64,000 nucleotides of DNA from Anaerosacchariphilus polymeriproducens (GTDB taxonomy: Bacteria; Bacillota; Clostridia; Lachnospirales; Lachnospiraceae). The notes under the pieces are model-generated. The model ran no database searches, had not been told where the DNA came from, and saw only the letters and a list, made by a program, of their open reading frames with translations. Shown in pieces: positions 4,360-31,636 of the stretch. The DNA is taken from positions 124,001-188,000 of the forward strand of contig NZ_QRCT01000050.1 in the NCBI RefSeq assembly GCF_003363435.1, given 5' to 3'. Both the position numbers and the translations under genes were made by a program. Numbering within the stretch: position 1 is the first letter of the stretch; every line of letters begins with the position of its first letter.

Positions 4360-5724
4360 ATGAGTAATGAATTTGTAGCAGATCCAACAAGATTAATTAT
4401 TGCCGCATTATGTGGCCTGGCTATCTTATTATTTTTGATTATTAAAATTAAAATGCAGGCTTTTCCATCGATTTTGATTTCTGCATTAGCAATAGGACTA
4501 ATTTCTGGAATGCCATTGACATTGATAACTGATACTGTAACAAAAGGTATGGGTGAGACATTAAAAGGAATTGCACTATTAGTAGGGTTAGGCTCAATGT
4601 TCGGTGCGATTCTGGAAATATCCGGAGGGGCAGAACGTGTAGCAGTCACGATGATTAAGTATTTTGGTGAAAAAAGGGCCGGTTGGGCACTTGGATTGAC
4701 AGGTATGGTAGTTGCGATACCGGTATTTTTCGATGCAGGTTTGATTATTTTGATACCATTGGCATTTTCTATTGCAAGAAAGGCGAAAAAATCAGTTTTA
4801 TTCTTTGTAATTCCATTGCTAGCCGGTTTGGCTGTCGGTCACGCTTTTATTCCACCAACACCGGGGCCAATTCTAGTGGCAAATATTTTAGGAGTAGATC
4901 TTGGTATCGTGATTGGGTTAGGTTTGATTTGTGGTACATTCGCTTTGGTTGCAGCAGGTCCTTTATTTGGTACATATTGTGGTAAGAAGTTTGATATTCC
5001 AGTACCTTTACAATATCAGGAAGTGCCTGAAATTGAGGAAAACAAGATGCCTTCATTTGGAAGCATTGTATTAATTATTCTTGTACCTTTAATGCTGATT
5101 TTAATTAATTCTGTATTGGGTATTATGCCACAGAATTCGTTTGTAACAACGGTTAAATCTATTTTTTCTTTCCTGGGTACTCCATTTGTTGCATTATTGA
5201 TTGCAACTATAATTGCTTGGTTGATTTTGGGTGTGAAGCATGGTTACTCAAGAGAAGAGCTTGAGAAAGTAATGACAAAGTCATTAGAACCGACAGGCCT
5301 GATTCTTTTAGTAACTGCAGGAGGCGGTGTATTACGTTATATGCTTCAAGATTCAGGACTTGGCGAGATTATTGGAAATGTAGTGAAAGCGACACCATTG
5401 CCGATTATCGTGGTAGCATTCATCATTGCACTTGCGGTACGTATATCCGTTGGTTCAGCCACTGTTGCTATGACTATGGCAGCAGGTATAGTAGCATCGA
5501 TGCCTATGGTTACAGGTTTATCACAGTTACATTTGGCATGTCTAGTAATGGCGATCGCAGGTGGTTCTACAGCAGCGTCACATTTTAATGACTCAGGATT
5601 CTGGTTGGTTAAATCTTTGTGTAACTTAGATGAAAAAACAACATTTAAAACGTGGACGTTGATGGAAACAATTGTTGGATGCACCGGTTTTTTAGTTGCA
5701 TTAGTCATTTCAATTTTTGCTTAG
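4360..5724 (+). CDS. GntP-family gluconate/sugar-acid permease
   Basis: 454 residues, strongly hydrophobic along the whole length with about 12 predicted membrane segments. Family-typical stretches include VAIPVFFDAGLIILIPL and the glycine/serine-rich AIAGGSTAASHFNDSGFW near the C-terminus, as in GntP/GntT gluconate-proton symporters. It lies 24 bp after the dehydratase and its TAG stop is embedded in the ribosome binding site of the next gene, so it is a tightly coupled member of the operon. Predicted role: uptake of the hexonate consumed by the upstream dehydratase. Confidence 0.9.
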   Translation: MSNEFVADPTRLIIAALCGLAILLFLIIKIKMQAFPSILISALAIGLISGMPLTLITDTVTKGMGETLKGIALLVGLGSMFGAILEISGGAERVAVTMIKYFGEKRAGWALGLTGMVVAIPVFFDAGLIILIPLAFSIARKAKKSVLFFVIPLLAGLAVGHAFIPPTPGPILVANILGVDLGIVIGLGLICGTFALVAAGPLFGTYCGKKFDIPVPLQYQEVPEIEENKMPSFGSIVLIILVPLMLILINSVLGIMPQNSFVTTVKSIFSFLGTPFVALLIATIIAWLILGVKHGYSREELEKVMTKSLEPTGLILLVTAGGGVLRYMLQDSGLGEIIGNVVKATPLPIIVVAFIIALAVRISVGSATVAMTMAAGIVASMPMVTGLSQLHLACLVMAIAGGSTAASHFNDSGFWLVKSLCNLDEKTTFKTWTLMETIVGCTGFLVALVISIFA

Positions 5725-5736
5725 GAGGAAGATAGA

Positions 5737-6375
5737 GTGGATTCGATGTTAGAACAAGTGAAAAATTTTGGAGTAATACCTGTAGTTGTTATCAACGACG
5801 CCAAAGATGCAAAGTTTTTGGCACAGGCGCTATGTAATGGTGGTCTACCTTGCGCCGAGATTACTTTTCGGACTGAGGCAGCAGTAGAAGCGCTTAAGAT
5901 CATGAGCAGGGAATTCCCACAGATGCTTCTTGGAGCCGGTACGGTATTGACCAAAACACAAGTCGATAAAGCCATTGAAGCCGGTGCAAAGTTTATTGTA
6001 AGTCCGGGTTTCGATTCAGAGATTGTAGATTACTGCTTAGAAAAAAATATACCAGTATTCCCCGGATGTATTACACCTTCAGAAGTGATACAGGCGGTAA
6101 AGAGAGGGCTGAAAGTTGTAAAGTTTTTTCCTGCCGAATCAGCAGGTGGTCTGGATATGATAAAAGCGATGTCAGCACCATATACTGATTTGGAGTTCAT
6201 GCCAACAGGAGGAATTCATGCAAAAAACCTTGAAAATTATCTTTCTTTCTCAAAAATAGCAGCATGCGGAGGAAGCTGGATGGTAAAAAGTGAACTGATT
6301 GAATCCGGAAGGTTCGATCAAATTGAACAATTAACAAAAGAGGCCAAGGCATTAGTTAATAAAATTCGTAAGTAA
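5737..6375 (+). CDS. eda: KDPG/KHG aldolase
   Basis: 212-residue class I aldolase. Visible active-site elements: Glu41 and Arg45 in AEITFRT, GAGTV, and the Schiff-base Lys129 in VVKFFPAE; a TGG phosphate-binding loop follows. It cleaves 2-keto-3-deoxy-6-phosphogluconate to pyruvate and glyceraldehyde 3-phosphate. The start is taken as GTG at 5737, seven bases after AGGAGGA; the in-frame ATG at 5746 is 16 bases away and less likely. Together with the following kinase it completes a KDG to KDPG to pyruvate branch. Confidence 0.93.
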   Translation: MDSMLEQVKNFGVIPVVVINDAKDAKFLAQALCNGGLPCAEITFRTEAAVEALKIMSREFPQMLLGAGTVLTKTQVDKAIEAGAKFIVSPGFDSEIVDYCLEKNIPVFPGCITPSEVIQAVKRGLKVVKFFPAESAGGLDMIKAMSAPYTDLEFMPTGGIHAKNLENYLSFSKIAACGGSWMVKSELIESGRFDQIEQLTKEAKALVNKIRK

Positions 6376-6387
6376 GGAGATATAATA

Positions 6388-7413
6388 ATGGCAAAAAAAG
6401 TAATTACATTTGGAGAAATTATGTTAAGACTTGCTCCGGAAGGATATTATCGTTTTGTGCAGGCGGAAAGTTTTGAGGCTACATTTGGCGGAGGAGAAGC
6501 TAATGTAGCAGTATCCTTAGCAAATTATGGTTTTGATGCCAAATTTGTAACGAAACTTCCGAAACATGAGATTGGCCAGACGGCGATTAATTCTTTGCGT
6601 CGTTATGGAGTGGATACTTCTTATATTAAAAGAGGCGGAGACCGTATAGGTATTTATTATCTTGAAAAAGGTGCATCGCAAAGACCTTCGAAAGTCATTT
6701 ACGATCGTGCCGGTTCTTCGATAGCAACAGCTAAGAAAGATGATTTTAACTGGGAAGAAATATTCAAAGATGCTCAGTGGTTTCATTTTACCGGGATAAC
6801 ACCAGCAATCGACGATGAGCTAGCATCAATTTGTCTGGATGCTTGCAAAATGGCGAAAGAGATGGGAATCACCATCTCATGTGATTTGAATTATAGAAAT
6901 AAGCTATGGTCCAGAGAAAAGGCAGGACGTGTCATGGATGAATTATGTCAGTATGTGGACGTATGTATAGCGAACGAAGAAGATGCTGCGGATGTATTTG
7001 GAATCAAGGCAGCAGATACAGACGTTACGAAGGGTACTGTAAATCATGAAGGTTATAAAGAGGTAGCAAACCAGCTTGCACAGCGTTTTCATTTTTCTAA
7101 AGTAGCCATTACATTAAGAGAATCTTTATCTGCCAATGATAACAACTGGTCTGCAATGCTATATGATGGCAATGATTATTATTTTAGTAAAAAATATAAA
7201 ATGCATATCGTAGACCGAGTTGGTGGCGGGGACAGTTTTGGAGGCGGATTGATCTGCGCATGTTTAAATGGCTATGATGCGCAGAAAACGATAGAGTTCG
7301 CAGTAGCTGCTTCTTGTTTAAAACATTCCATTGAAGGGGATTTTAATATGGTCTCTGTAGATGAAGTACTAAAACTTGCGCAGGGAGATGCTTCCGGTCG
7401 TGTACAAAGATAA
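6388..7413 (+). CDS. kdgK: 2-keto-3-deoxygluconate kinase (PfkB family)
   Basis: 341 residues. N-terminal FGEIMLRLAP and FGGGEANVAVSLA are the sugar-binding signature of PfkB/ribokinase-type KDG kinases. VGGGDSFGGG near residues 278-287 is the ATP/anion-hole motif, with Asp282 as catalytic base. It would phosphorylate KDG at C6 to feed the upstream aldolase. Last gene of the four-gene operon, 12 bp after eda, with a clear AAGGAG site. No terminator is evident before the mntP promoter. Fructokinase is a less likely alternative given the neighbours. Confidence 0.88.
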   Translation: MAKKVITFGEIMLRLAPEGYYRFVQAESFEATFGGGEANVAVSLANYGFDAKFVTKLPKHEIGQTAINSLRRYGVDTSYIKRGGDRIGIYYLEKGASQRPSKVIYDRAGSSIATAKKDDFNWEEIFKDAQWFHFTGITPAIDDELASICLDACKMAKEMGITISCDLNYRNKLWSREKAGRVMDELCQYVDVCIANEEDAADVFGIKAADTDVTKGTVNHEGYKEVANQLAQRFHFSKVAITLRESLSANDNNWSAMLYDGNDYYFSKKYKMHIVDRVGGGDSFGGGLICACLNGYDAQKTIEFAVAASCLKHSIEGDFNMVSVDEVLKLAQGDASGRVQR

Positions 7414-7431
7414 GAGAATAATAAGAAGTTG

Positions 7432-7460
7432 TTGACAATTAAATATCATTAAGGTATTAT
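7432..7460 (+). promoter_or_regulatory. Promoter of the mntP riboswitch transcript
   Basis: TTGACA (7432-7437), 17-bp spacer, TATTAT (7455-7460), placing the start near 7467, just before the riboswitch aptamer. Confidence 0.75.
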
Positions 7461-7466
7461 GTTATC

Positions 7467-7600
7467 TATGTAAATAAGGGAGTAGTTGGCATCTTGAATA
7501 AAGATGTAATGAAGTCAACATACTGATAATATATTATCTGGCTTTATTTTAAATAACGAGACTTATCTACAGCCTAAGCTGTAGATAAGTTTTTTTAATT
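7467..7600 (+). promoter_or_regulatory. yybP-ykoY manganese riboswitch
   Basis: The leader before mntP carries the two conserved loops of the yybP-ykoY family: GGGAGTAG (7478-7485) and CAACATACTG (7516-7525). A closing helix can form between AAATAAG (about 7472) and CTTTATTT (about 7541). A strong intrinsic terminator follows (7561-7597). In this family Mn2+ binding by the two docked loops stabilises the aptamer and turns on expression of Mn exporters, matching the gene downstream. Predicted mechanism here: Mn-dependent relief of termination. Confidence 0.88.
7561..7597 (+). terminator. Riboswitch-controlled terminator
   Basis: 13-bp perfect stem (7561-7573 with 7578-7590), loop CTAA, then a run of T. 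It is the expression platform of the manganese riboswitch, about 40 nt before mntP. Confidence 0.88.
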
Positions 7601-7637
7601 AAATGGAAAGTACAGTAACAACTAAAGGAGAAGCGTT

Positions 7638-8237
7638 ATGGGTTTAGTAGAATTATTTATTTTAGCTGTAGGGTTGTCTATGGATGCTTTTGCGGTATCT
7701 ATATGTAAAGGTTTGTCGTTGAGAAAAATACAAATAAAACATATTGTCGTAGTTGGACTGTATTTTGGTATTTTCCAAGGAGGAATGCCGTTTATAGGGT
7801 ACCTTTTAGGAAACCAGTTCAGTGAAAAGATTGTAAGTGTGGATCACTGGATCGCATTTATTTTGTTGCTGATTATTGGAATTAATATGATAAAAGAATC
7901 TAGGAAAGATGAGATAGATGAAATAGAGAATAACGCTGAAAATACAGGGTTAGAAGTAAAAGGAATGCTGTTATTAGCTATTGCTACGAGTATTGATGCT
8001 TTAGCAGTAGGAGTGACATTTGCATTTTTAAAGGTAAATATTCTACCGGCCGTAACATTTATTGGAATCACAACTTTTGTCCTATCATCGCTTGGAGTAA
8101 AGATTGGTAATGTTTTTGGATCCAAGTATAAATCTCATGCGGAGTTGGCGGGTGGTCTGATATTGATTATTTTGGGAACCAAGATATTATTGGATCATAC
8201 AGGATTTTTACAAAAATTAGGAACTCATTTATTTTAA
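7638..8237 (+). CDS. mntP: Manganese efflux pump MntP
   Basis: 199 residues, six predicted membrane helices arranged as two three-helix repeats. Each repeat holds a membrane aspartate in a related motif: [15 protein letters not shown] (Asp16) and [16 protein letters not shown] (Asp120), the metal-path residues of the MntP (DUF204) family. The cytoplasmic loop between repeats is acidic ([13 protein letters not shown]). Upstream is a yybP-ykoY Mn2+ riboswitch, which independently supports a role in exporting excess Mn2+. ATG preceded by AAAGGAG. Confidence 0.95.
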
Positions 8238-8252
8238 AAAACTATTAAGACA

Positions 8253-8284
8253 AAAAAAGAATGTGCATACGCACATTCTTTTTT
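8253..8284. terminator. Bidirectional terminator between mntP and csp
   Basis: A6-GAATGTGC (8253-8266), loop ATAC, GCACATTC-T6 (8271-8284). The A and T flanks make it work for mntP on + and for csp on -. Confidence 0.85.
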
Positions 8285-8396
8285 AATCATCATGTTTCAT
8301 AATTCAATATAGCTTTATTCTTAATAAATATAGATATTTATATATAGAAAAAGGTACACTGGAAATCAAATGATTAGAATAAGATAGAAATTAATT

Positions 8397-8597
8397 CTAT
8401 AATTTAGTTACGTTTGTAGCTTGTGGTCCTTTAGCGCCGTTAATTACTTCGAATTGAACTTCTGCGCCTTCTTCAAGAGATTTGAATCCATCCATGTCAA
8501 GACCTGAATAGTGAACGAATACATCGTTTCCTGCTTCGTCAGAAATAAAACCGTAACCCTTTTGGTTGTTAAACCATTTTACTGTACCTTTGCTCAT
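8397..8597 (-). CDS. Cold-shock domain protein
   Basis: 66 residues, a single cold-shock domain with both RNA-binding motifs intact: RNP1 KGYGFI (about 13-18) and RNP2 VFVHY (about 26-30). Such proteins bind single-stranded RNA/DNA and act as RNA chaperones. The ATG has a GGAGGT site. The predicted leader is only about 45 nt and begins with a hairpin, unlike the long structured leader of E. coli cspA. It stands alone, ending about 110 bp before a shared terminator. Confidence 0.95.
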
Positions 8598-8625
8598 TGC
8601 GATACCTCCAATAAATAATATGTCA

Positions 8626-8641
8626 GTTGTGTCCCCACAAC
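8626..8641 (-). other. 5'-terminal hairpin in the csp leader
   Basis: Six-bp perfect stem (GTTGTG/CACAAC) with a four-base GGGA loop on the - strand. The predicted transcription start (about 8643) puts it at the very 5' end of the mRNA, about 15 nt upstream of the ribosome binding site. Confidence 0.5.
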
Positions 8642-8649
8642 ATAGGTTA

Positions 8650-8678
8650 AGAATAACATAAATATTCAGTAAAGTAAA
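8650..8678 (-). promoter_or_regulatory. Promoter of the cold-shock gene
   Basis: On the - strand: TTTACT (-35, 8673-8678), 17-bp spacer, extended -10 TGT-TATTCT (-10 hexamer 8650-8655). Confidence 0.55.
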
Positions 8679-8729
8679 GCTGAATTTTCAAATATTATAA
8701 ATATCTTATTGACAATTTCTATTATTTTT

Positions 8730-9233
8730 TTACAGGTTTGAAAATGGTATTTGTCCTCTTTTAAAAAACTTAATAATCATAGTATCCCATGCCTGCTCTA
8801 ACGTTTTATCAATCGTAAAAAGGTTCAGAGAGGTACCTGTAATACAATGAAATTCATTTTGAGCAAAATGAATATTCAGATATAATCCGTTAATATCAGA
8901 AGATGTCATGGGAATACCTGTTTGAGTCAATAGATTTTCAATATTTTTAGGGGATAAAGCTAAAACAAATTTTAATTGTAAAGGAGTCTTTTTCCCTTTA
9001 ATTAATTCAAGGCAGATCTGTTTAAAGTTACTCCAATAATCATAAGTCAGAGAATTACGTTCACTTATGCTCAATTCATCAGTAGAGTAAAATGCATTTT
9101 GAATCCGCCCATCGATCTTATAAGAATTTCCTGTCACGATTATAGCTTCTATTAATAAAAAATGATCAAATAAATCAGACTTAAGCAGCTGAGAAACGAA
9201 TTTAGGAGAATCTTCTATTAGTAATGAAATCAT
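8730..9233 (-). CDS. DUF5721 family protein
   Basis: 167 residues from the ATG at 9233, chosen because a GGAGG box lies about six bases before it; an upstream in-frame TTG at 9254 lacks a site. I recognise the overall pattern of DUF5721, a family largely limited to Lachnospiraceae: an N-terminal ISLL...F...LL..D.FD.FLL.EA.I.T stretch, LIKGKKTPLQLKFVLALS in the middle and TGTSLNLFTIDKTLEQAWD near the end. No catalytic motif, signal peptide or membrane segment is visible. Function unknown. Divergent from the M18 aminopeptidase. Confidence 0.75.
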   Translation of the reverse strand: MISLLIEDSPKFVSQLLKSDLFDHFLLIEAIIVTGNSYKIDGRIQNAFYSTDELSISERNSLTYDYWSNFKQICLELIKGKKTPLQLKFVLALSPKNIENLLTQTGIPMTSSDINGLYLNIHFAQNEFHCITGTSLNLFTIDKTLEQAWDTMIIKFFKRGQIPFSNL

Positions 9234-9309
9234 ATAAACCTCCGTTTTATTCAATTACGATAGATATTGCAAAATTTTTTCGCAACAACTATATGCAAAT
9301 ATTATAGTC

Positions 9310-9320
9310 TTGTCAGACAA
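9310..9320. promoter_or_regulatory. Perfect 11-bp palindrome TTGTC-A-GACAA
   Basis: Lies in the divergent DUF5721/M18 intergenic region beside a -10-like TATAAT (on -, 9301-9306). It fits the FadR-subfamily operator pattern TNGTNNNACNA exactly. Which regulator binds is unknown. Confidence 0.4.
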
Positions 9321-9359
9321 AAAAAGAAAGTCTATTTTGGGGAAATATTAAAGATATAG

Positions 9360-9388
9360 TTGGATAATTACTCAGAAACGATTATAAT
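9360..9388 (+). promoter_or_regulatory. Promoter of the M18 aminopeptidase
   Basis: TTGGAT (9360-9365), 17-bp spacer, TATAAT (9383-9388), about 35 bp before the ATG. Confidence 0.65.
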
Positions 9389-9423
9389 AAGCATATAACA
9401 TAAAGAATAGCAGGAGGGAAGTA

Positions 9424-10728
9424 ATGGAAAACTTAAAGAGTATAGATGAATTATTAGAATTGGTGGAACAATCAACTTCGGCTTTTCATACAGTAAAAGC
9501 AGGGATAGAACAACTGAATGAGGCAGGTTTTGAGCCGCTTGATCTGACTACTGAATGGGGTTTAAATCGTGGAGGGAAATATTATTTAAATTATCATGAT
9601 TCTACTCTAGTTGCATTTACAATTGGAGAGCAGTTCGATTACAATGAAGGCTGCAGAATAACAGCAGCTCATTCGGACTTTCCGTGTCTCAAAATAAAAC
9701 CAAATCCGGATCTAAGAAAAGAAAAATATGCGCAGATAAACGTTGAGGTTTATGGTGGAGCTATATTGAATACATGGCTGGACCGTCCATTATCGGTAGC
9801 CGGGAGAGTAGTATTAAAGAGCGATGATATTTTTCATCCTATTGTAAGACTAATCGATGTCAAGAGACCAATTTTTGTGATCCCTAATTTAGCAATTCAT
9901 TTAAATAAAGAAATCAATAAAGGAATCGAATTAAACAAACAGACAGATATGCTGCCGATTGGAGCTATATTAGAAGAAGTGGAAAAAGAATGGAACCAGT
10001 ATCAATATTTTATGAATTTTCTTGCACGAGAGCTGCATGTAAATAAAGAAGATATTTTAGATTTTGAATTAAACCTATATGTTGCTGAACAAGGCGATTT
10101 GTTAGGAATGGATGAATCCATGATTTCAGCTCCCAGATTAGACAATTTAACTGGTGTGCATGCAGTGATAACAGGATTGATTGAGGGGGAAAGAAAAGCA
10201 GGTATTAATGTAGGCGTTCTGTTTGATCATGAAGAGATAGGAAGCAAAACGAAACAGGGGGCAGGCTCTATATTTTTATATACAATATTAGAAAAGATAT
10301 TCTGTAGTTTAGGCAGGACACGTCTTCGTTTTCAAGAAGAACTTTTTGACAGTTTGTTCCTATCCATTGATGTTGGTCACGCATTTCATCCAAATCAAGA
10401 AAAGAAGAATGACATTACGAACAAGAATATTTTGAATCAGGGGATATCAATTAAAGAATCTTCGGTTCAGTCCTATGTGACAGATAGTGAAGCGATTGGT
10501 ATAATACAGCAGATATGTGAAGCCAAAGAGATTCCTTATCAAAAGTTTGCTAACCGCTCAGATGGATCTTCGGGAAGCACATTAGGCTCAATTGCCTCCA
10601 CCATGCTTCCAATCAAAACAGTTGATATAGGAGTGCCAATATTGGCTATGCATTCAGCTAGAGAATTAATGGGCGCTAAGGACCAGATTGCATTAGTGAA
10701 TTTAGTGAAAGCTTATTATAGCTTATAG
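9424..10728 (+). CDS. M18 family aminopeptidase
   Basis: 434 residues, the usual length for cytoplasmic M18 metallo-aminopeptidases (aspartyl aminopeptidase group). Metal and catalytic elements are visible in order: AAHSDFP, RLDNLTG, DHEEIGS, SIDVGHAFHPN and MHSARELMG. These enzymes remove N-terminal, often acidic, residues from peptides in the cytosol as homododecamers. ATG at 9424 has a strong GGAGGGAAG site. Monocistronic as far as can be seen: its own promoter precedes it and a 43-bp gap follows. Confidence 0.93.
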   Translation: MENLKSIDELLELVEQSTSAFHTVKAGIEQLNEAGFEPLDLTTEWGLNRGGKYYLNYHDSTLVAFTIGEQFDYNEGCRITAAHSDFPCLKIKPNPDLRKEKYAQINVEVYGGAILNTWLDRPLSVAGRVVLKSDDIFHPIVRLIDVKRPIFVIPNLAIHLNKEINKGIELNKQTDMLPIGAILEEVEKEWNQYQYFMNFLARELHVNKEDILDFELNLYVAEQGDLLGMDESMISAPRLDNLTGVHAVITGLIEGERKAGINVGVLFDHEEIGSKTKQGAGSIFLYTILEKIFCSLGRTRLRFQEELFDSLFLSIDVGHAFHPNQEKKNDITNKNILNQGISIKESSVQSYVTDSEAIGIIQQICEAKEIPYQKFANRSDGSSGSTLGSIASTMLPIKTVDIGVPILAMHSARELMGAKDQIALVNLVKAYYSL

Positions 10729-10771
10729 GTTATGCGATATAGTATAACGAAAGAAAAGAACGAAAAAAATC

Positions 10772-12016
10772 ATGAAGGTCAGGTTTATAATGAGAAGAAA
10801 AAGAAATAAAATAAGATATTATGTTTCCGTAGTTATTATAATCTTATGTGTATTTACGATAGTAGAAAACAAAAAATTAATAAATTCTAAATTAGAGGAT
10901 GTCTGGACTATTTTACAGGATACAATCGTAGAGAACGAAAGTAAAAAAGTTATTGAGAAGTCGAAAGACACTACTAAAAAAAGTGAAATAGAAGAAACGA
11001 AATCAAATAAATCAAAAAAGACAATAGGTGAAATTGAAAGATATGCTTATTCTTATTTAAATAAAGAGGAAAAGAAAGTATATATGGAATGGGTCGATAT
11101 ATTACTGGAGCATAAAACGAAAGTAGAAGTATCTACTTTAGATCCTGATATAATAGAAAAGGCATATCGATATGTATTAAGTGATTATCCGGGTATGTTC
11201 TGGGTCAATGGATATTCCTATGTGGAACATAAACTGTTTAATAAAACAACGAAGGTGGTGGTAGAACCGGAATTTACCATGACCAAAGAGGAAAGACAGG
11301 TTAAGCAGAAACAGATAGATGCAAAGGTTAATGAATATCTTTCCGGAATTTCTCAGGAGAGCAGTGATTATGAGAAGATGAAATATGTTTATGATTCTTT
11401 GACAACTAAAGTAGTCTATAACAAAAATGCAAAAGATAATCAAAATATTTGCAGTGTATTTTTAAATGGGGAATCTGTTTGTCAAGGTTATGCCTATGCC
11501 ACACAGTATTTATTGCAGAAACTGAACATCCCTTGTGTGTCAGTTACAGGTACTGCATTGGGTGAGGGACATGCATGGAACCTTGTGAAACTGGATGGAC
11601 AATATTATTATGTGGATACTACCTGGGGCAGTAACTCAAATCAGAAAGAGTATGCGAATCAAGTCAATTATGCTTATTTTTGTCTCACATCAGCAGAGAT
11701 GAGTCTGACGCACCAACCTTCCGGTTTATTTCCTCTGCCAGAGTGTACTGCGACACAGAATAATTATTTTGTAAAAGAAGGCTATTATTTTGAGTCTTTT
11801 GAAACATCAGTACTAAGTAAATTTATTCAGACGGCCTATGAAAGTCAGCAAAACGCAATATGTTTAAAATTTGCGAATAAAGAATTATATGAATCGTTCC
11901 GTAAATATTATATAGAAGAATCACATATTTTTGACTGTATAGGACAGACTACTTCTATTCGTTATCTGGAAGATAATGTTCATAATGTATTGACTTTTTA
12001 TCGTCAAAGTGAATAA
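10772..12016 (+). CDS. Membrane-anchored transglutaminase-like protein
   Basis: 414 residues. A basic N-terminus and one hydrophobic segment (about residues 14-30) act as an uncleaved anchor, so the bulk is extracellular. After a lysine/serine-rich linker (about 45-85) comes a transglutaminase-core domain with the triad Cys (GESVCQGYA), His (GEGHAWNLV) and Asp (YYVDTTW). Such domains in Clostridia are often cysteine proteases or cell-wall enzymes. The ATG at 10772 has a weak site; ATG at 10790 (MRRKRNK...) is an equally good start. Function beyond fold is not known. Confidence 0.8.
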   Translation: MKVRFIMRRKRNKIRYYVSVVIIILCVFTIVENKKLINSKLEDVWTILQDTIVENESKKVIEKSKDTTKKSEIEETKSNKSKKTIGEIERYAYSYLNKEEKKVYMEWVDILLEHKTKVEVSTLDPDIIEKAYRYVLSDYPGMFWVNGYSYVEHKLFNKTTKVVVEPEFTMTKEERQVKQKQIDAKVNEYLSGISQESSDYEKMKYVYDSLTTKVVYNKNAKDNQNICSVFLNGESVCQGYAYATQYLLQKLNIPCVSVTGTALGEGHAWNLVKLDGQYYYVDTTWGSNSNQKEYANQVNYAYFCLTSAEMSLTHQPSGLFPLPECTATQNNYFVKEGYYFESFETSVLSKFIQTAYESQQNAICLKFANKELYESFRKYYIEESHIFDCIGQTTSIRYLEDNVHNVLTFYRQSE

Positions 12017-26832: not shown

Positions 26833-26859
26833 GTTATTGGGTTGAAGGGCGGTGAATTT

Positions 26860-27225
26860 ATGACCAAAGGTCAGTTAGAGTCCAAACTTAGTGAATTATT
26901 TAGCAAATTTGAAATAGAGTATATGGGTAGAGGACCAAAGACTATACGCACATATATAATTAATGACATAATCATTTTTAGACTTTCTGGTATTTTAAGT
27001 CCTTCGGAAGAAAAACTTGCAAGCAGTCCCCAAGGGATAGAACTTTTAAAAAAAGTCCGTACTTCATTATTTGAAGGTGGGAGAGGATATCTGGAAACAT
27101 TGATAACTGACTTTATTGATGTGGCCATAGTCAGCACTCATTCTGATATTAGTACGAAAACGGGTGAAAAAATAGTTGTTATTACAGTAGATAAAAACCT
27201 AGAGGAAATGTGTACAGTGAAATAG
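26860..27225 (+). CDS. DUF2294 family protein
   Basis: 121 residues from the ATG at 26860 (GGGCGGTG upstream); an in-frame TTG at 26842 is too close to the promoter. The order TKGQLESKLSEL...EYMGRGPKTIRTYIINDIIIFRLSGILSPSEEKLA...SLFEGG...HSDISTKTGEKIVVITVDK matches DUF2294, a small soluble family of unknown function found in Firmicutes and cyanobacteria. No catalytic residues evident. A structured region of about 100 nt and a terminator separate it from purE; with no clear promoter there, it may share a transcript with purE-purC. Confidence 0.8.
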   Translation: MTKGQLESKLSELFSKFEIEYMGRGPKTIRTYIINDIIIFRLSGILSPSEEKLASSPQGIELLKKVRTSLFEGGRGYLETLITDFIDVAIVSTHSDISTKTGEKIVVITVDKNLEEMCTVK

Positions 27226-27307
27226 CTTCGGAAGACGACGCAAAGTGGAAAGTGAATTCTAAGTTGCAAGTAAGCCGATATCCATTTTATGTGGGTATTG
27301 GCTTTTC
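27226..27307 (+). promoter_or_regulatory. Unclassified structured leader before purE
   Basis: About 60 nt of unusually GC-rich, non-coding sequence (CTTCGGAAG hairpin at 27227-27235 region, then GACGACGCAAAG) run straight into an intrinsic terminator (27272-27307), 28 nt before purE. No good promoter lies between the terminator and purE. The arrangement resembles an attenuator or riboswitch, but it does not match the purine, ZTP or PRPP aptamers I know. ACGCAAAG is also a core string of c-di-GMP-I aptamers, whose other half (GGCAAACC) is missing. Confidence 0.4.
27272..27307 (+). terminator. Terminator/attenuator upstream of purE
   Basis: AGCCGATATCC (27273-27283) pairs with GGGTATTGGCT (27293-27303) over 11 positions with two G-U pairs, then TTTT. 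Confidence 0.75.
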
Positions 27308-27335
27308 TATTATATTATGAAAAGGAGTGTGTTAT

Positions 27336-27830
27336 ATGGTAAAAAAAGTAGCAATTGTTATGGGCAGCGATAGTGATTTACCAATCGTAAAAGGTGCAAT
27401 AGACAGTCTGAAAAGTTTTGGCGTATCTGTTGAAGCGCATGTTATGAGTGCGCATAGAACACCTGAAAGAGCTTGCGAGTTTGCGATGCATGCAAGGGAA
27501 AACGGTTTTGGAGTAATTATCGCTGCAGCAGGAATGGCAGCACATTTAGCTGGAGTTTTAGCAGCACATACAACTCTTCCAGTTATAGGAATTCCATGTA
27601 AAGGTTCATTTGATGGAATGGATGCGTTATTGTCTACAGTCCAGATGCCAAAAGGTATTCCGGTAGCGACGGTAGCAGTTAATGGAGCTTATAATGCAGG
27701 GATTCTGGCAGCACAGATACTTGGAGTATATGATGAAGATATCGAGCAAAAATTATTGAAGATGAAACAGGATATGAAAGAAGAAGTGACAAAAAAAGAT
27801 GAGAAACTTCAAAATGAGATTGGTTTATAG
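27336..27830 (+). CDS. purE: N5-carboxyaminoimidazole ribonucleotide mutase (PurE)
   Basis: 164 residues from ATG 27336 (AAGGAG nine bases upstream); the GTG at 27327 overlaps the ribosome binding site. Class I PurE motifs: MGSDSDLP (CO2/phosphate loop) and VMSAHRTPERA (catalytic histidine). It moves the carboxylate from N5 to C4 of carboxyaminoimidazole ribotide in purine synthesis. purC follows by about 50 bp. No purK is in the window. Confidence 0.95.
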   Translation: MVKKVAIVMGSDSDLPIVKGAIDSLKSFGVSVEAHVMSAHRTPERACEFAMHARENGFGVIIAAAGMAAHLAGVLAAHTTLPVIGIPCKGSFDGMDALLSTVQMPKGIPVATVAVNGAYNAGILAAQILGVYDEDIEQKLLKMKQDMKEEVTKKDEKLQNEIGL

Positions 27831-27881
27831 TTAATGATTTCATTTGTATATTTTGAAAACACAGAAAGGAATGTACAGATT

Positions 27882-28607
27882 ATGGAAAATGTGGTTAAGT
27901 CGGAGCAACTTTATGAAGGCAAAGCTAAAAAAGTTTATGCTACCAATGTTCCTGAATTAGTTATTGTTGATTATAAAGATGATGCTACCGCTTTTAATGG
28001 AGAAAAGAAAGGTACCATTGCTAATAAAGGAATTATTAATAACCGGGTTACCAATCATATGATGAAACTTCTTGGAAGAGAAGGTATTCCGACTCATTTT
28101 GTTGAAGAAATTTCCGATAGAGAGACAATCGTGAAAAGAGTTGATATCATTCCGTTGGAAGTTATTGTTCGTAATATAGTTGCTGGTTCTCTTGCGAAGA
28201 GAGTTGGACAACCTGAGGGAACAAAGTTAAATTCAACAGTCCTGGAATTTTCTTACAAGGATGATGATTTAGGAGATCCTATGGTGAATGAGTATCATAT
28301 CCTGGCAATGAATTGGGCTTCCAAAGAAGAAATTGACTTGATTTCAAACTATTCTTTAAAAGTAAATCAATTTATGACTGAATATTTAAAGGATATGAAT
28401 ATTGAACTGATTGATTTCAAGTTAGAATTTGGAAAAACTGCAGATGGTACAATAGTACTTGCAGATGAAATTTCTCCAGATACTTGTAGATTTTGGGATT
28501 CAAATACAGGTGAAAAGCTTGATAAAGATCGTTTTCGTCGCGATATGGGCGGAGAAAAGGATGCTTATAATGAAATTATGAATAGACTTATGGGTGAAAC
28601 TGTTTAA
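27882..28607 (+). CDS. purC: SAICAR synthetase (PurC)
   Basis: 241 residues from ATG 27882, chosen for the AAAGGAA site and because conserved sequence starts there ([12 protein letters not shown]). An ATG at 27834 is in frame but has no site. Motifs: GKAKKVYAT (ATP loop), [25 protein letters not shown]. Joins aspartate to CAIR in de novo purine synthesis, directly after PurE in the pathway and in the operon. Confidence 0.95.
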
Positions 28608-28682: not shown

Positions 28683-30557
28683 ATGAACAAATTATTAGAG
28701 AAACTAAACTTACCGGAATACGTATTAGATATTCTGGAGAACTCAAAAGGAGTTATTATTCCAAAAACAAGAACAGAATTAGTCGAGCTTGCATTTGGAC
28801 CTGAAGATAAGTCTTTTTTTGAGGTTGAATACGAAGTAGAAGGTATTGGGACTGTTGTAGAGGCTACTGTTACAAAATGTAAGAATGGAGCTTCCGTAAA
28901 CTATATGGATGATTATATGAGAAGACGTGATCCTAACAGTTTGATAGTTTCTGATGACAAAGCTACAGACAAGCCAACTTTTAAAGGAACATACCAGAAA
29001 GAGTTTGAGCCTTTGAGACAAGAGACATTTGAATGGCTGAAACAACAAGAACTTATTTTTTATCCATTTAAATCCGGTGGTATGGAACATGGTTATGATT
29101 CTATTTTGGTTGCGCCATCAAATGCGGGATTCTTTGCTGCAGGTCTTGCAGATTTACAAGCGTTTTTGAATATTGATGAAATTAACGAATTTGATTTAAA
29201 AGCTATCATTTTCCTGGCACCACCATTTAGACATACACATTTTGATGGAAAACAGATCGTAGTTCATAATCGTTTGGACAAGGTTCATGAAGTATATTCC
29301 TATAATCTTTACCCAGGACCAAGTGCCAAAAAAGGTATTTATGGTGTTTTACTTAATATTGGTGAGCAAGAAGGCTGGACAACAGCGCATGCTTCTACCG
29401 TAAAAGTTGTTACACCTTATGATAATGAAATCGTTATTATGCATGAAGGTGCTTCCGGCGGCGGTAAGAGTGAAATGATCGAAAAAGTTCATAGAGAAAT
29501 GGATGGCCGAATTGTTGTAGGTACCAATACGGTAAGTGGAGAAAAAGAATATATTGATTTTAAAGATTCTTGTGAACTTTATCCGGTTACGGATGATATG
29601 GCATTGTGTCATCCTGATATCCAGAATGATAGTAAGAAACTTGTAGTACAGGATGCGGAAGCAGGTTGGTTCTTAAGACTCGATAATATAACAAGTTATG
29701 GAAGTTCTCCTGAATATGAAAAAATCTTTACACATCCGAAAGAACCTCTTATTTTCTTAAATATTCAAGGTGTTCCAAATGCAACTTGTTTAGTTTGGGA
29801 ACATACTTTAGACAGAGATGGAACTCCTTGTCCAAATCCTAGAGTAATTCTTCCAAGAGATTTGGTTCCGGAAGTTATTTCAGATTCTGTTGAGATCGAT
29901 GTTAGAAGTTTTGGTGTACGTGCTCCAGCTTGTACAAAAGAACATCCTACTTACGGAATTATGGGGTTATTCCATGTATTACCACCAGCGCTTGCATGGT
30001 TATGGAGATTGGTAGCGCCAAGAGGATACAATAACCCAAGTATTATTGATACAAAAGGAATGACAAGTGAAGGTGTTGGGTCTTACTGGCCATTTGCAAC
30101 AGGTAAAATGGTGACACAGGCGAATTTACTTTTAGATCAAATTGTAAAATCTGAAAATACTCGTTATGTATTAATTCCAAATCAACATATCGGAGCTTAC
30201 AAGGTAAGCTTTATGCCACAGTGGATTTCAAGAGAATATATTGCGCGTCGTGGAAGTGCAAAATTCAAACCAGAACATTTGGTAGAAGCACGTTGCCCAT
30301 TGTTTGGTTATGGACTTGAGTCTCTGAAAATTGAAGGACAGTATATTAGAAGAGGATTCCTTCAACCTGAAAGACAACCGGAAGTTGGAAAAGAAGGTTA
30401 TGATGCAGGTGCTGTAATCCTAACTGATTTCTTTGCGAAGGAACTTGAGAAATTTAATACAGATGCTCTTGATCCATTAGGAAGAAAAATTATTGAAGTA
30501 TTTAAGAATAATGGAACAGTACAAGATTATATTGATTTGATTCCAATGAGATATTAA
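28683..30557 (+). CDS. DUF4914 protein, predicted PEPCK/HPr-kinase-like P-loop enzyme
   Basis: 624 residues, soluble, no signal peptide. I recognise it as DUF4914, without assigned function. A Walker A-type loop GASGGGKSEM (256-265) and, about 45 residues later, VTDDMA (302-307) match the order and spacing style of HPr kinase (GESGIGKSEA...VTDDVV) and, more distantly, PEP carboxykinase. Other conserved-looking stretches are AHASTVKVVTPYDNEIVIMHEG and RSFGVRAPACTKEHPTYG. It has its own promoter and a perfect terminator, and hprK follows. A kinase or ATP/GTP-dependent carboxy enzyme is plausible; the reaction is not known. Confidence 0.75.
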   Translation: MNKLLEKLNLPEYVLDILENSKGVIIPKTRTELVELAFGPEDKSFFEVEYEVEGIGTVVEATVTKCKNGASVNYMDDYMRRRDPNSLIVSDDKATDKPTFKGTYQKEFEPLRQETFEWLKQQELIFYPFKSGGMEHGYDSILVAPSNAGFFAAGLADLQAFLNIDEINEFDLKAIIFLAPPFRHTHFDGKQIVVHNRLDKVHEVYSYNLYPGPSAKKGIYGVLLNIGEQEGWTTAHASTVKVVTPYDNEIVIMHEGASGGGKSEMIEKVHREMDGRIVVGTNTVSGEKEYIDFKDSCELYPVTDDMALCHPDIQNDSKKLVVQDAEAGWFLRLDNITSYGSSPEYEKIFTHPKEPLIFLNIQGVPNATCLVWEHTLDRDGTPCPNPRVILPRDLVPEVISDSVEIDVRSFGVRAPACTKEHPTYGIMGLFHVLPPALAWLWRLVAPRGYNNPSIIDTKGMTSEGVGSYWPFATGKMVTQANLLLDQIVKSENTRYVLIPNQHIGAYKVSFMPQWISREYIARRGSAKFKPEHLVEARCPLFGYGLESLKIEGQYIRRGFLQPERQPEVGKEGYDAGAVILTDFFAKELEKFNTDALDPLGRKIIEVFKNNGTVQDYIDLIPMRY

Positions 30558-30578
30558 TAAAGAATAATAGAATTTTAG

Positions 30579-30620
30579 CTGCTCCTTGACTATTACTTAA
30601 TAGTCAAGGAGCAGTTTTTT
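30579..30620 (+). terminator. Strong terminator after the DUF4914 gene
   Basis: 16-bp perfect stem (30579-30594 with 30599-30614), loop ACTT, then T6. Confidence 0.93.
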
Positions 30621-30712: not shown

Positions 30713-31636
30713 ATGCATAGTGTTAATTTAACAAAAATTGTAGATAAGATGAAATTAGTAAATATGACCCCTGATATTGATCTGAGTCAGATAGAAGTGA
30801 CACGCTCGGATATTAATCGTACTGCATTACAGCTGGTAGGGTATTTCGAACATTTTGAATCAGACCGAGTGCAGATAATAGGAACAGTAGAGTATACATA
30901 TTTGACAAAAATGGAACACAATGAACAAGTACGTGTTTTTACTGAATTAATGTCGTATCAGATGCCATGTGTTGTTTTGTGCCGAGGTTATGAAGCGCAG
31001 CCATACATGATTGAAGCAGCAACACATTATGGAGTACCTATTCTTTCGACAGAAAAGACTACTTCTTCCTTTACGGCAGAAATTATACGATGGTTGAATG
31101 TTCAGATAGCACCTTCCATATCAATACATGGAGTGTTGGTAGATGTATATGGTGAAGGGATCTTAATTACAGGTGAAAGTGGAATCGGAAAAAGTGAAGC
31201 GGCTTTAGAATTAATACGAAGAGGACATCGTCTTGTTACAGATGATGTTGTGGAGATTAGGAAGGTCAGCGATGATACATTGATAGGTGTTTCGCCGGAT
31301 ATTACAAAAAACTTTATTGAATTACGTGGTATCGGCATTGTAGATGTAAAAACTCTTTTTGGTGTAGAATGTATAAAGGAGACTTCTGCAATTGATTTAG
31401 TTATAAAATTGGAAGATTGGAAAAAAGACGCTGAGTATGACCGGCTTGGATTGGAAGAAGAATTTATAGAATATCTGGGGAATAAAGTAACATGTCATTC
31501 TATTCCTATTAGACCAGGTAGGAATCTCGCTATTATTTGTGAGTCTGCAGCTGTTAATCACAGACAAAAGAAAATGGGCTATAATGCGGCTCAGGAGTTA
31601 TATAACAGAGTACAAAGCAGTTTGAAGAAAGGATAA
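30713..31636 (+). CDS. hprK: HPr kinase/phosphorylase
   Basis: 307 residues. N-terminal HPrK domain, then the P-loop kinase domain with conserved His139 (ISIHG), Walker A GESGIGKS (154-161), TDDVV (176-180) and the family signature ELRGIGIVDVKTLFG (203-217). It phosphorylates and dephosphorylates HPr at Ser46, the core of carbon catabolite repression in Firmicutes. An HPr with Ser46 is encoded at 51616. A ROK kinase follows 13 bp downstream, linking glucose phosphorylation to the sensor. AGGAGG site. Confidence 0.96.
   Translation: MHSVNLTKIVDKMKLVNMTPDIDLSQIEVTRSDINRTALQLVGYFEHFESDRVQIIGTVEYTYLTKMEHNEQVRVFTELMSYQMPCVVLCRGYEAQPYMIEAATHYGVPILSTEKTTSSFTAEIIRWLNVQIAPSISIHGVLVDVYGEGILITGESGIGKSEAALELIRRGHRLVTDDVVEIRKVSDDTLIGVSPDITKNFIELRGIGIVDVKTLFGVECIKETSAIDLVIKLEDWKKDAEYDRLGLEEEFIEYLGNKVTCHSIPIRPGRNLAIICESAAVNHRQKKMGYNAAQELYNRVQSSLKKG

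Follow-up and report, generated by a model that had tools for sequence, protein, structure and literature searches.

DUF4914 is probably an unrecognised and highly diverged class of phosphoenolpyruvate carboxykinase (PEPCK) with PEPCK-type chemistry, because the predicted structure has a PEPCK-like fold along the whole chain and every catalytic residue is kept in the sequences. PEPCK interconverts oxaloacetate and phosphoenolpyruvate (PEP). It is the meeting point of glycolysis, gluconeogenesis and C4 acids, and metabolic models rely on whether it is present or absent to infer pathways. If DUF4914 is active, the PEP-oxaloacetate step would be misread in many anaerobes, and a domain of unknown function would become a simple, assayable enzyme.

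The window, that is, the whole stretch of DNA analysed, comprises 64,000 nucleotides of Anaerosacchariphilus polymeriproducens. The gene under study is located in it as follows.

28683 to 30557, + strand: DUF4914 gene, 624 aa, ATG start, PEPCK-like along its full length

The encoded protein matched PF16260 with 1078.9 bits against a cut-off of 25.7 and covered 612 of 612 model positions, which makes it a member of DUF4914. No other family was found in a Pfam search at E ≤ 10; in particular, the protein matched neither PF01293 (PEPCK ATP) nor PF00821 (PEPCK GTP), and the domains Hpr_kinase_N and Hpr_kinase_C were absent as well. Searches of NCBIfam and PHROGs with the same protein gave no match. 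The PDB sequence search, with either the protein or the family profile, returned nothing significant, the best hit by profile being the ATP-PEPCK 1j3b (E 1.4). A literature search on DUF4914, PF16260 and IPR032583 found no paper naming the family.

The structure of the window protein was predicted by AlphaFold2 from a 26-sequence alignment (the protein itself and 25 homologues). The model had a pLDDT of 89.6 and a pTM of 0.89, with low-confidence parts within the P-loop (258-261) and within 451-470. When it was compared with the PDB by Foldseek, the best 50 matches were all PEPCKs, with a top E of 9.5e-24. VIA alignments gave a Z of 30.0 with the Thermus ATP-PEPCK 2pc9 (rmsd 2.9, 488 of 512 residues aligned), 29.1 and 28.9 with the PPi-PEPCKs 8e1u of Propionibacterium and 6k31 (566 and 578 residues aligned, respectively), and about 26 with GTP-PEPCKs (about 525 residues). 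As matches differing by no more than 1 Z were treated as ties, Z does not separate ATP-PEPCK from PPi-PEPCK. Sequence identity to any PEPCK in these structural alignments was only 12-18%. According to the model, it is near certain that DUF4914 has the PEPCK fold over its whole chain, although fold alone is no proof of PEPCK activity. The predicted fold is thus that of PEPCK and not an unrelated one; together with the invariant PEPCK-like active site described below, it strongly supports the membership in the HprK/PEPCK superfamily that the original prediction had proposed from motif resemblance.

Conservation was assessed in an alignment of 71 full-length DUF4914 homologues, originating from Clostridia and relatives, Planctomycetes, Verrucomicrobia-side lineages, Chitinispirillia/Chitinivibrionales, Spirochaetes and Hydrogenedens. 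The following positions, all on the + strand, were mapped onto the PEPCK active site.

28920 to 28928, + strand: R80-R81-R82, with R81 the counterpart of the substrate Arg (R65 of E. coli ATP-PEPCK) by profile alignment; invariant in 71/71
29310 to 29333, + strand: Y210-P-G-P-S-A-K216-K217, aligned by profile with E. coli Y207-G-G-E-M-K212-K213; Y, G212, K and K invariant in 71/71
29388 to 29390, + strand: H236, counterpart of the Mn2+-ligand His (E. coli H232), paired with the PEPCK His by both ATP and GTP profiles; 71/71
29448 to 29474, + strand: Walker A motif (P-loop) GASGGGKSE, residues 256-264; invariant save for position 260
29592 to 29597, + strand: kinase-2 Asp pair D304-D305, equated with D268/D269 by motif order and not by profile alignment; invariant in 71/71
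29841 to 29843, + strand: R387 in CPNPRVILP, matched to the second substrate Arg (E. coli R333) through a low-scoring alternative profile alignment with ENTRAAYPIHYI; invariant in 71/71

The active-site set of PEPCK (R, Y, K-K, H, P-loop S/K/T(S), D-D and R) is therefore present in DUF4914 in that order, the mapping resting on profile alignment from R81 to the P-loop, on order for D-D and on a very weak alignment for R387. The E. coli residues R65, Y207, K212, K213, S250, K254 and D269 are named in PDB mutant entries among the structural matches; H232, T255, D268 and R333 complete the E. coli set, whose residues serve in substrate, Mn2+ and phosphate binding. The motifs on which the original prediction was built, GASGGGKSEM at residues 256-265 and VTDDMA at 302-307, were both found in the open reading frame. 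Their Lys, Ser and two Asp were kept in all 71 homologues, no loss of the P-loop being seen; the full invariant set here is G256, A257, S258, G259, G261, K262, S263, E264, D304 and D305, which shows that the motif match is no accident.

DUF4914 shares with ATP-PEPCK (PF01293; 2pc9, 1aq2 and 6at4) the whole-chain fold (Z 28-30), the K-K pair, the His, the P-loop and the order of the catalytic residues at near-equal spacing, with 19 residues from the second Lys to the His in both. It differs in its identity of 13-18%, in lacking a Pfam PEPCK match, in having E after GKS and in being about 100 residues longer. The distance from the P-loop Lys to the first Asp is also larger: it amounts to 42 residues, whereas an ATP-PEPCK had 14 and a GTP-PEPCK 20. 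GTP-PEPCK (PF00821; 2fah, 3dt4 and 9e35) resembles DUF4914 in fold (Z 26), in length and in an EGWxxxH motif ahead of the P-loop, and by eye its DDIA and PxxHPNxR resemble DDMA and PCPNPR. Here the differences are an identity of 12-15%, a Gly in place of the Cys of the PSACGKT P-loop (by profile alignment) and, by eye, the apparent replacement of the guanine-pocket motif WPGFGEN by YWPFATG.

Sequence profiles were compared using HHalign, with 60 column shuffles per comparison as controls, with and without masking of the P-loop. Against 30 ATP-PEPCKs, the DUF4914 profile aligned over 220 columns (P 8.7e-5) and, without prior guidance, matched R81 to the GRSP Arg, Y210 to the YAGE Tyr, K216/K217 to KK, H236 to the MHCSA His and P-loop to P-loop; PNPRVILP, which contains R387, was matched to ENTRAAYP in an alternative alignment that was very weak. 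Against GTP-PEPCK, EGWxxxH and the P-loop were paired (P 5.9e-4). These matches are modest, with E of 1e-4 to 6e-4 for single comparisons. Unmasked scores exceeded the shuffle maximum for ATP-PEPCK (43.3 versus 31.1), GTP-PEPCK (39.9 versus 27.6) and HprK (34.9 versus 29.6). After masking, ATP-PEPCK scored 29.6, a borderline value between the 95th percentile (28.1) and the maximum (31.1) of the shuffles, and GTP-PEPCK scored 27.7, likewise on the border of the range covered by the shuffles. The sequence similarity to PEPCK beyond the P-loop thus reaches only the edge of that range. A 579-aa protein with a GDSGAGKSE P-loop, encoded in a related genome (locus L070, 1871-3610, + strand), bridges the two families as an intermediate sequence, matching DUF4914 at 2e-4 and PEPCK_ATP at 5e-4 around the P-loop; it probably belongs to another undescribed PEPCK-like family.

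The genes around DUF4914 in the window, together with two predicted terminators, are arranged as follows.

27272 to 27304: predicted terminator upstream of purE
27327 to 27830, + strand: purE (AIR carboxylase; PF00731, E 1.7e-62), presumed to share a transcription unit with DUF4914
27834 to 28607, + strand: purC (SAICAR synthetase; PF01259, E 7e-89), 76 bp upstream of DUF4914
30577 to 30616, + strand: predicted intrinsic terminator between DUF4914 and hprK, an 18-pair stem followed by a T-run
30713 to 31636, + strand: hprK (PF07475/PF02603), next gene downstream of DUF4914, not conserved as a neighbour

The order purE-purC-DUF4914 is head to tail and bounded by the two predicted terminators, and hprK starts past the second. 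Our scan found about as many terminator-like sites as in shuffled sequences, the 18-pair stem at 30577-30616 being a long one. The next gene does encode HprK, with GESGIGKSEA and VTDDVV (Hpr_kinase_C, E 3e-69), as had been noted, and DUF4914 has in common with HPr kinase/phosphorylase a GxSGxGKSE P-loop and a DD pair. From this resemblance and the adjacent hprK, one could propose that DUF4914 is a regulatory kinase/phosphorylase of the HprK kind, with a protein as its substrate and a part in carbon catabolite control. We regard this as extremely improbable. The Walker A-to-DD spacing said to be shared differs (42 residues in DUF4914, 17 in the window HprK), DUF4914 is twice as long as HprK and has no N-terminal HprK domain, and its full-length match is to PEPCK, with no HprK among the best 50 structural matches. 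With the P-loop masked, the HprK score fell to 21.9, below the 95th percentile of the shuffles (22.7). Kinship with HprK was therefore rejected, the similarity being limited to the P-loop. Nor did the suggested tie to carbon control survive: hprK adjoins DUF4914 in only 1 of 66 loci, a strong predicted terminator separates the two genes, and Hpr_kinase_C was not matched at all in 19 of 40 genomes with DUF4914. An hprK-DUF4914 operon was rejected on the first two of these grounds, and the hprK neighbour in the window is incidental.

Among the genomes sampled, DUF4914 was found in 13 of 150 from the family to which the window belongs and in 41 of 398 from its phylum; 40 of these 41 were counted, the weak match of L070 being left out. 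The phylum sample contained a clear ATP-PEPCK in 165 genomes and a clear GTP-PEPCK in 44; these two never occurred in one genome (0 of 209, about 18 expected by chance). DUF4914, however, shared the genome with one or other of them in 16 of 40 cases (odds ratio 0.57, p 0.10, without correction for relatedness), so that it is probably no plain substitute for the canonical enzyme, and plain replacement is not supported. A clear canonical PEPCK was also present in 8 of 24 further DUF4914 genomes, mostly MAGs. This coexistence suggests that DUF4914 probably has a separate metabolic role. In the control genome of Thermotoga maritima, DUF4914 was present and PEPCK_ATP and PEPCK_GTP were both absent. 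In a published comparison (PMC3561251), Thermotoga neapolitana is entered without a pepck gene, and the conclusion drawn there is that species of Thermotoga have no complete malate shunt. T. maritima nevertheless carries DUF4914.

Several observations were made along with this survey. The window's own genome encodes a 558-aa diverged PEPCK_ATP-like protein (locus L075, 1189-2862, + strand; 72 bits), which scored 137.6 bits against PRK09344.1-3, well under the cut-off; matches as strong were seen in several further genomes, among them those of L002 and L005. Two decayed DUF4914 genes were found, one with 12 in-frame stops in its main stretch (G209:C1:1076688-1078554) and one reduced to its 3' part (G400:C14:19334-19952) in a genome that also has a GTP-PEPCK. 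No plasmid carriage of DUF4914 was found.

Genes of purine synthesis are the neighbours that recur. Of 31 lineage groups, 4 have purE, purK or purC as the direct neighbour of DUF4914, on the same strand and with a gap of ≤124 bp. These are Lachnospiraceae, family f92, Limisphaera and Chitinivibrionales, which are scattered over the DUF4914 tree. In 5 of the 31 groups, purE is no more than 4 kb away. By a rough estimate, this adjacency is far beyond chance (about 0.2% per genome, lineages taken as independent, not a run computation). Most DUF4914 lineages have no pur neighbours. In individual lineages, the genes just upstream are instead ones of C4-acid metabolism, encoding oxaloacetate decarboxylase with a biotin carrier (L074), malic enzyme (L050) or citrate synthase (L027 and L015).

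Both the scattered pur adjacency and the coexistence with canonical PEPCK would suit a PEPCK-fold carboxykinase or kinase whose substrate is a different acid, for instance one belonging to purine synthesis or close to it, with the metal and P-loop chemistry kept. This is unlikely, since R81, Y210 and R387, the equivalents of the residues that bind PEP and oxaloacetate, are invariant and unchanged, and pur neighbours are missing from most lineages, with C4-acid genes in their place in other single lineages. The insertion between the P-loop and the Asp pair, and the active PEPCKs coexisting in some genomes, could likewise point to a catalytically dead protein with a structural or sensory role. 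All catalytic positions, however, are invariant in 71 sequences from several phyla, which would be unexpected of a dead enzyme and makes this possibility very unlikely.

Within the PEPCK reading, DUF4914 might be a compact enzyme dependent on PPi and not on a nucleotide, which we consider somewhat doubtful. PPi-PEPCK structures aligned the most residues of the model (566-578 of 624) and gave the highest query TM (0.69-0.74 versus 0.61-0.67), and the base-pocket motif of GTP-PEPCK is apparently replaced. Organisms with PPi-PEPCK mostly carry a canonical PEPCK too (PMC8100219), as DUF4914 genomes often do. Against this, Z is tied with that of ATP-PEPCK, and PPi-PEPCK (about 1,120 residues, chains of 1108-1126) is roughly twice as long as DUF4914 and 16% identical in the structural comparison. 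DUF4914 matches neither the ATP nor the GTP family model and is unlike PPi-PEPCK in length; the family is best described as PEPCK-like, a probable new class.

As a PEPCK, DUF4914 would interconvert oxaloacetate and PEP plus CO2 via an enolate, moving a phosphoryl group. The P-loop (G256-E264) would hold the phosphate donor, with Mg2+ at S263/D304; K217, H236 and D305 would hold the active-site Mn2+; and R81, Y210 and R387 would bind the C3/C4 acid. The carboxykinase activity raised in the original prediction is strongly supported as far as fold and active-site residues go; activity itself, oxaloacetate/PEP as substrate and the direction of the reaction are what we infer from them. ATP, GTP and PPi are all candidate donors, with the choice undecided. 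The C4-acid neighbours, the intermediate L070 protein and the presence of DUF4914 without a canonical PEPCK in T. maritima speak for a PEPCK. Weighing against one are the identity of 12-18%, the modest profile matches with their borderline masked scores, the mapping of the Asp pair by order and of R387 by a very weak alignment, the 42-residue spacing and the low-confidence parts of the model; the coexistence with canonical PEPCK speaks against plain redundancy. Aspartate, derived from oxaloacetate, is a substrate of PurC, and the PurE/PurK step uses CO2/bicarbonate; as a suggestion only, this would suit a PEPCK that forms oxaloacetate. In our view, the slightly more likely direction is that PEP is carboxylated to oxaloacetate, as an aspartate precursor next to purC/purE/purK. 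More tentatively, DUF4914 may be a fourth PEPCK class that has a phosphate donor or partner acid of its own, such as a compact PPi enzyme or a supplier of oxaloacetate/aspartate to purine synthesis, spread over several phyla and possibly the sole enzyme of PEPCK type in Thermotoga maritima and in further bacteria regarded as PEPCK-less.

Other genes were also seen near DUF4914. An MpsC-family gene (PF10057; window 26842-27225, + strand) is found upstream, in the orientation of DUF4914, at 12 loci from 5 lineage groups; it was dropped as a clue to bicarbonate transport because MpsC is dispensable for MpsAB function in S. aureus (PMC6689103). Pfam-less genes of 370 aa (L071, 4308-5420) and 141 aa (L053, 1013-1438; both + strand) are placed 21-38 bp upstream of DUF4914 in the sampled members of families f25 and f92. 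In two Clostridia lineages, a DUF3360 protein is encoded directly downstream (L005, 7926-9311; L007, 8105-9499; + strand). The oxaloacetate decarboxylase genes at L074 (OadG, a biotin carrier, OadB and OadA; 5221-10839, - strand) immediately precede one of two DUF4914 copies.
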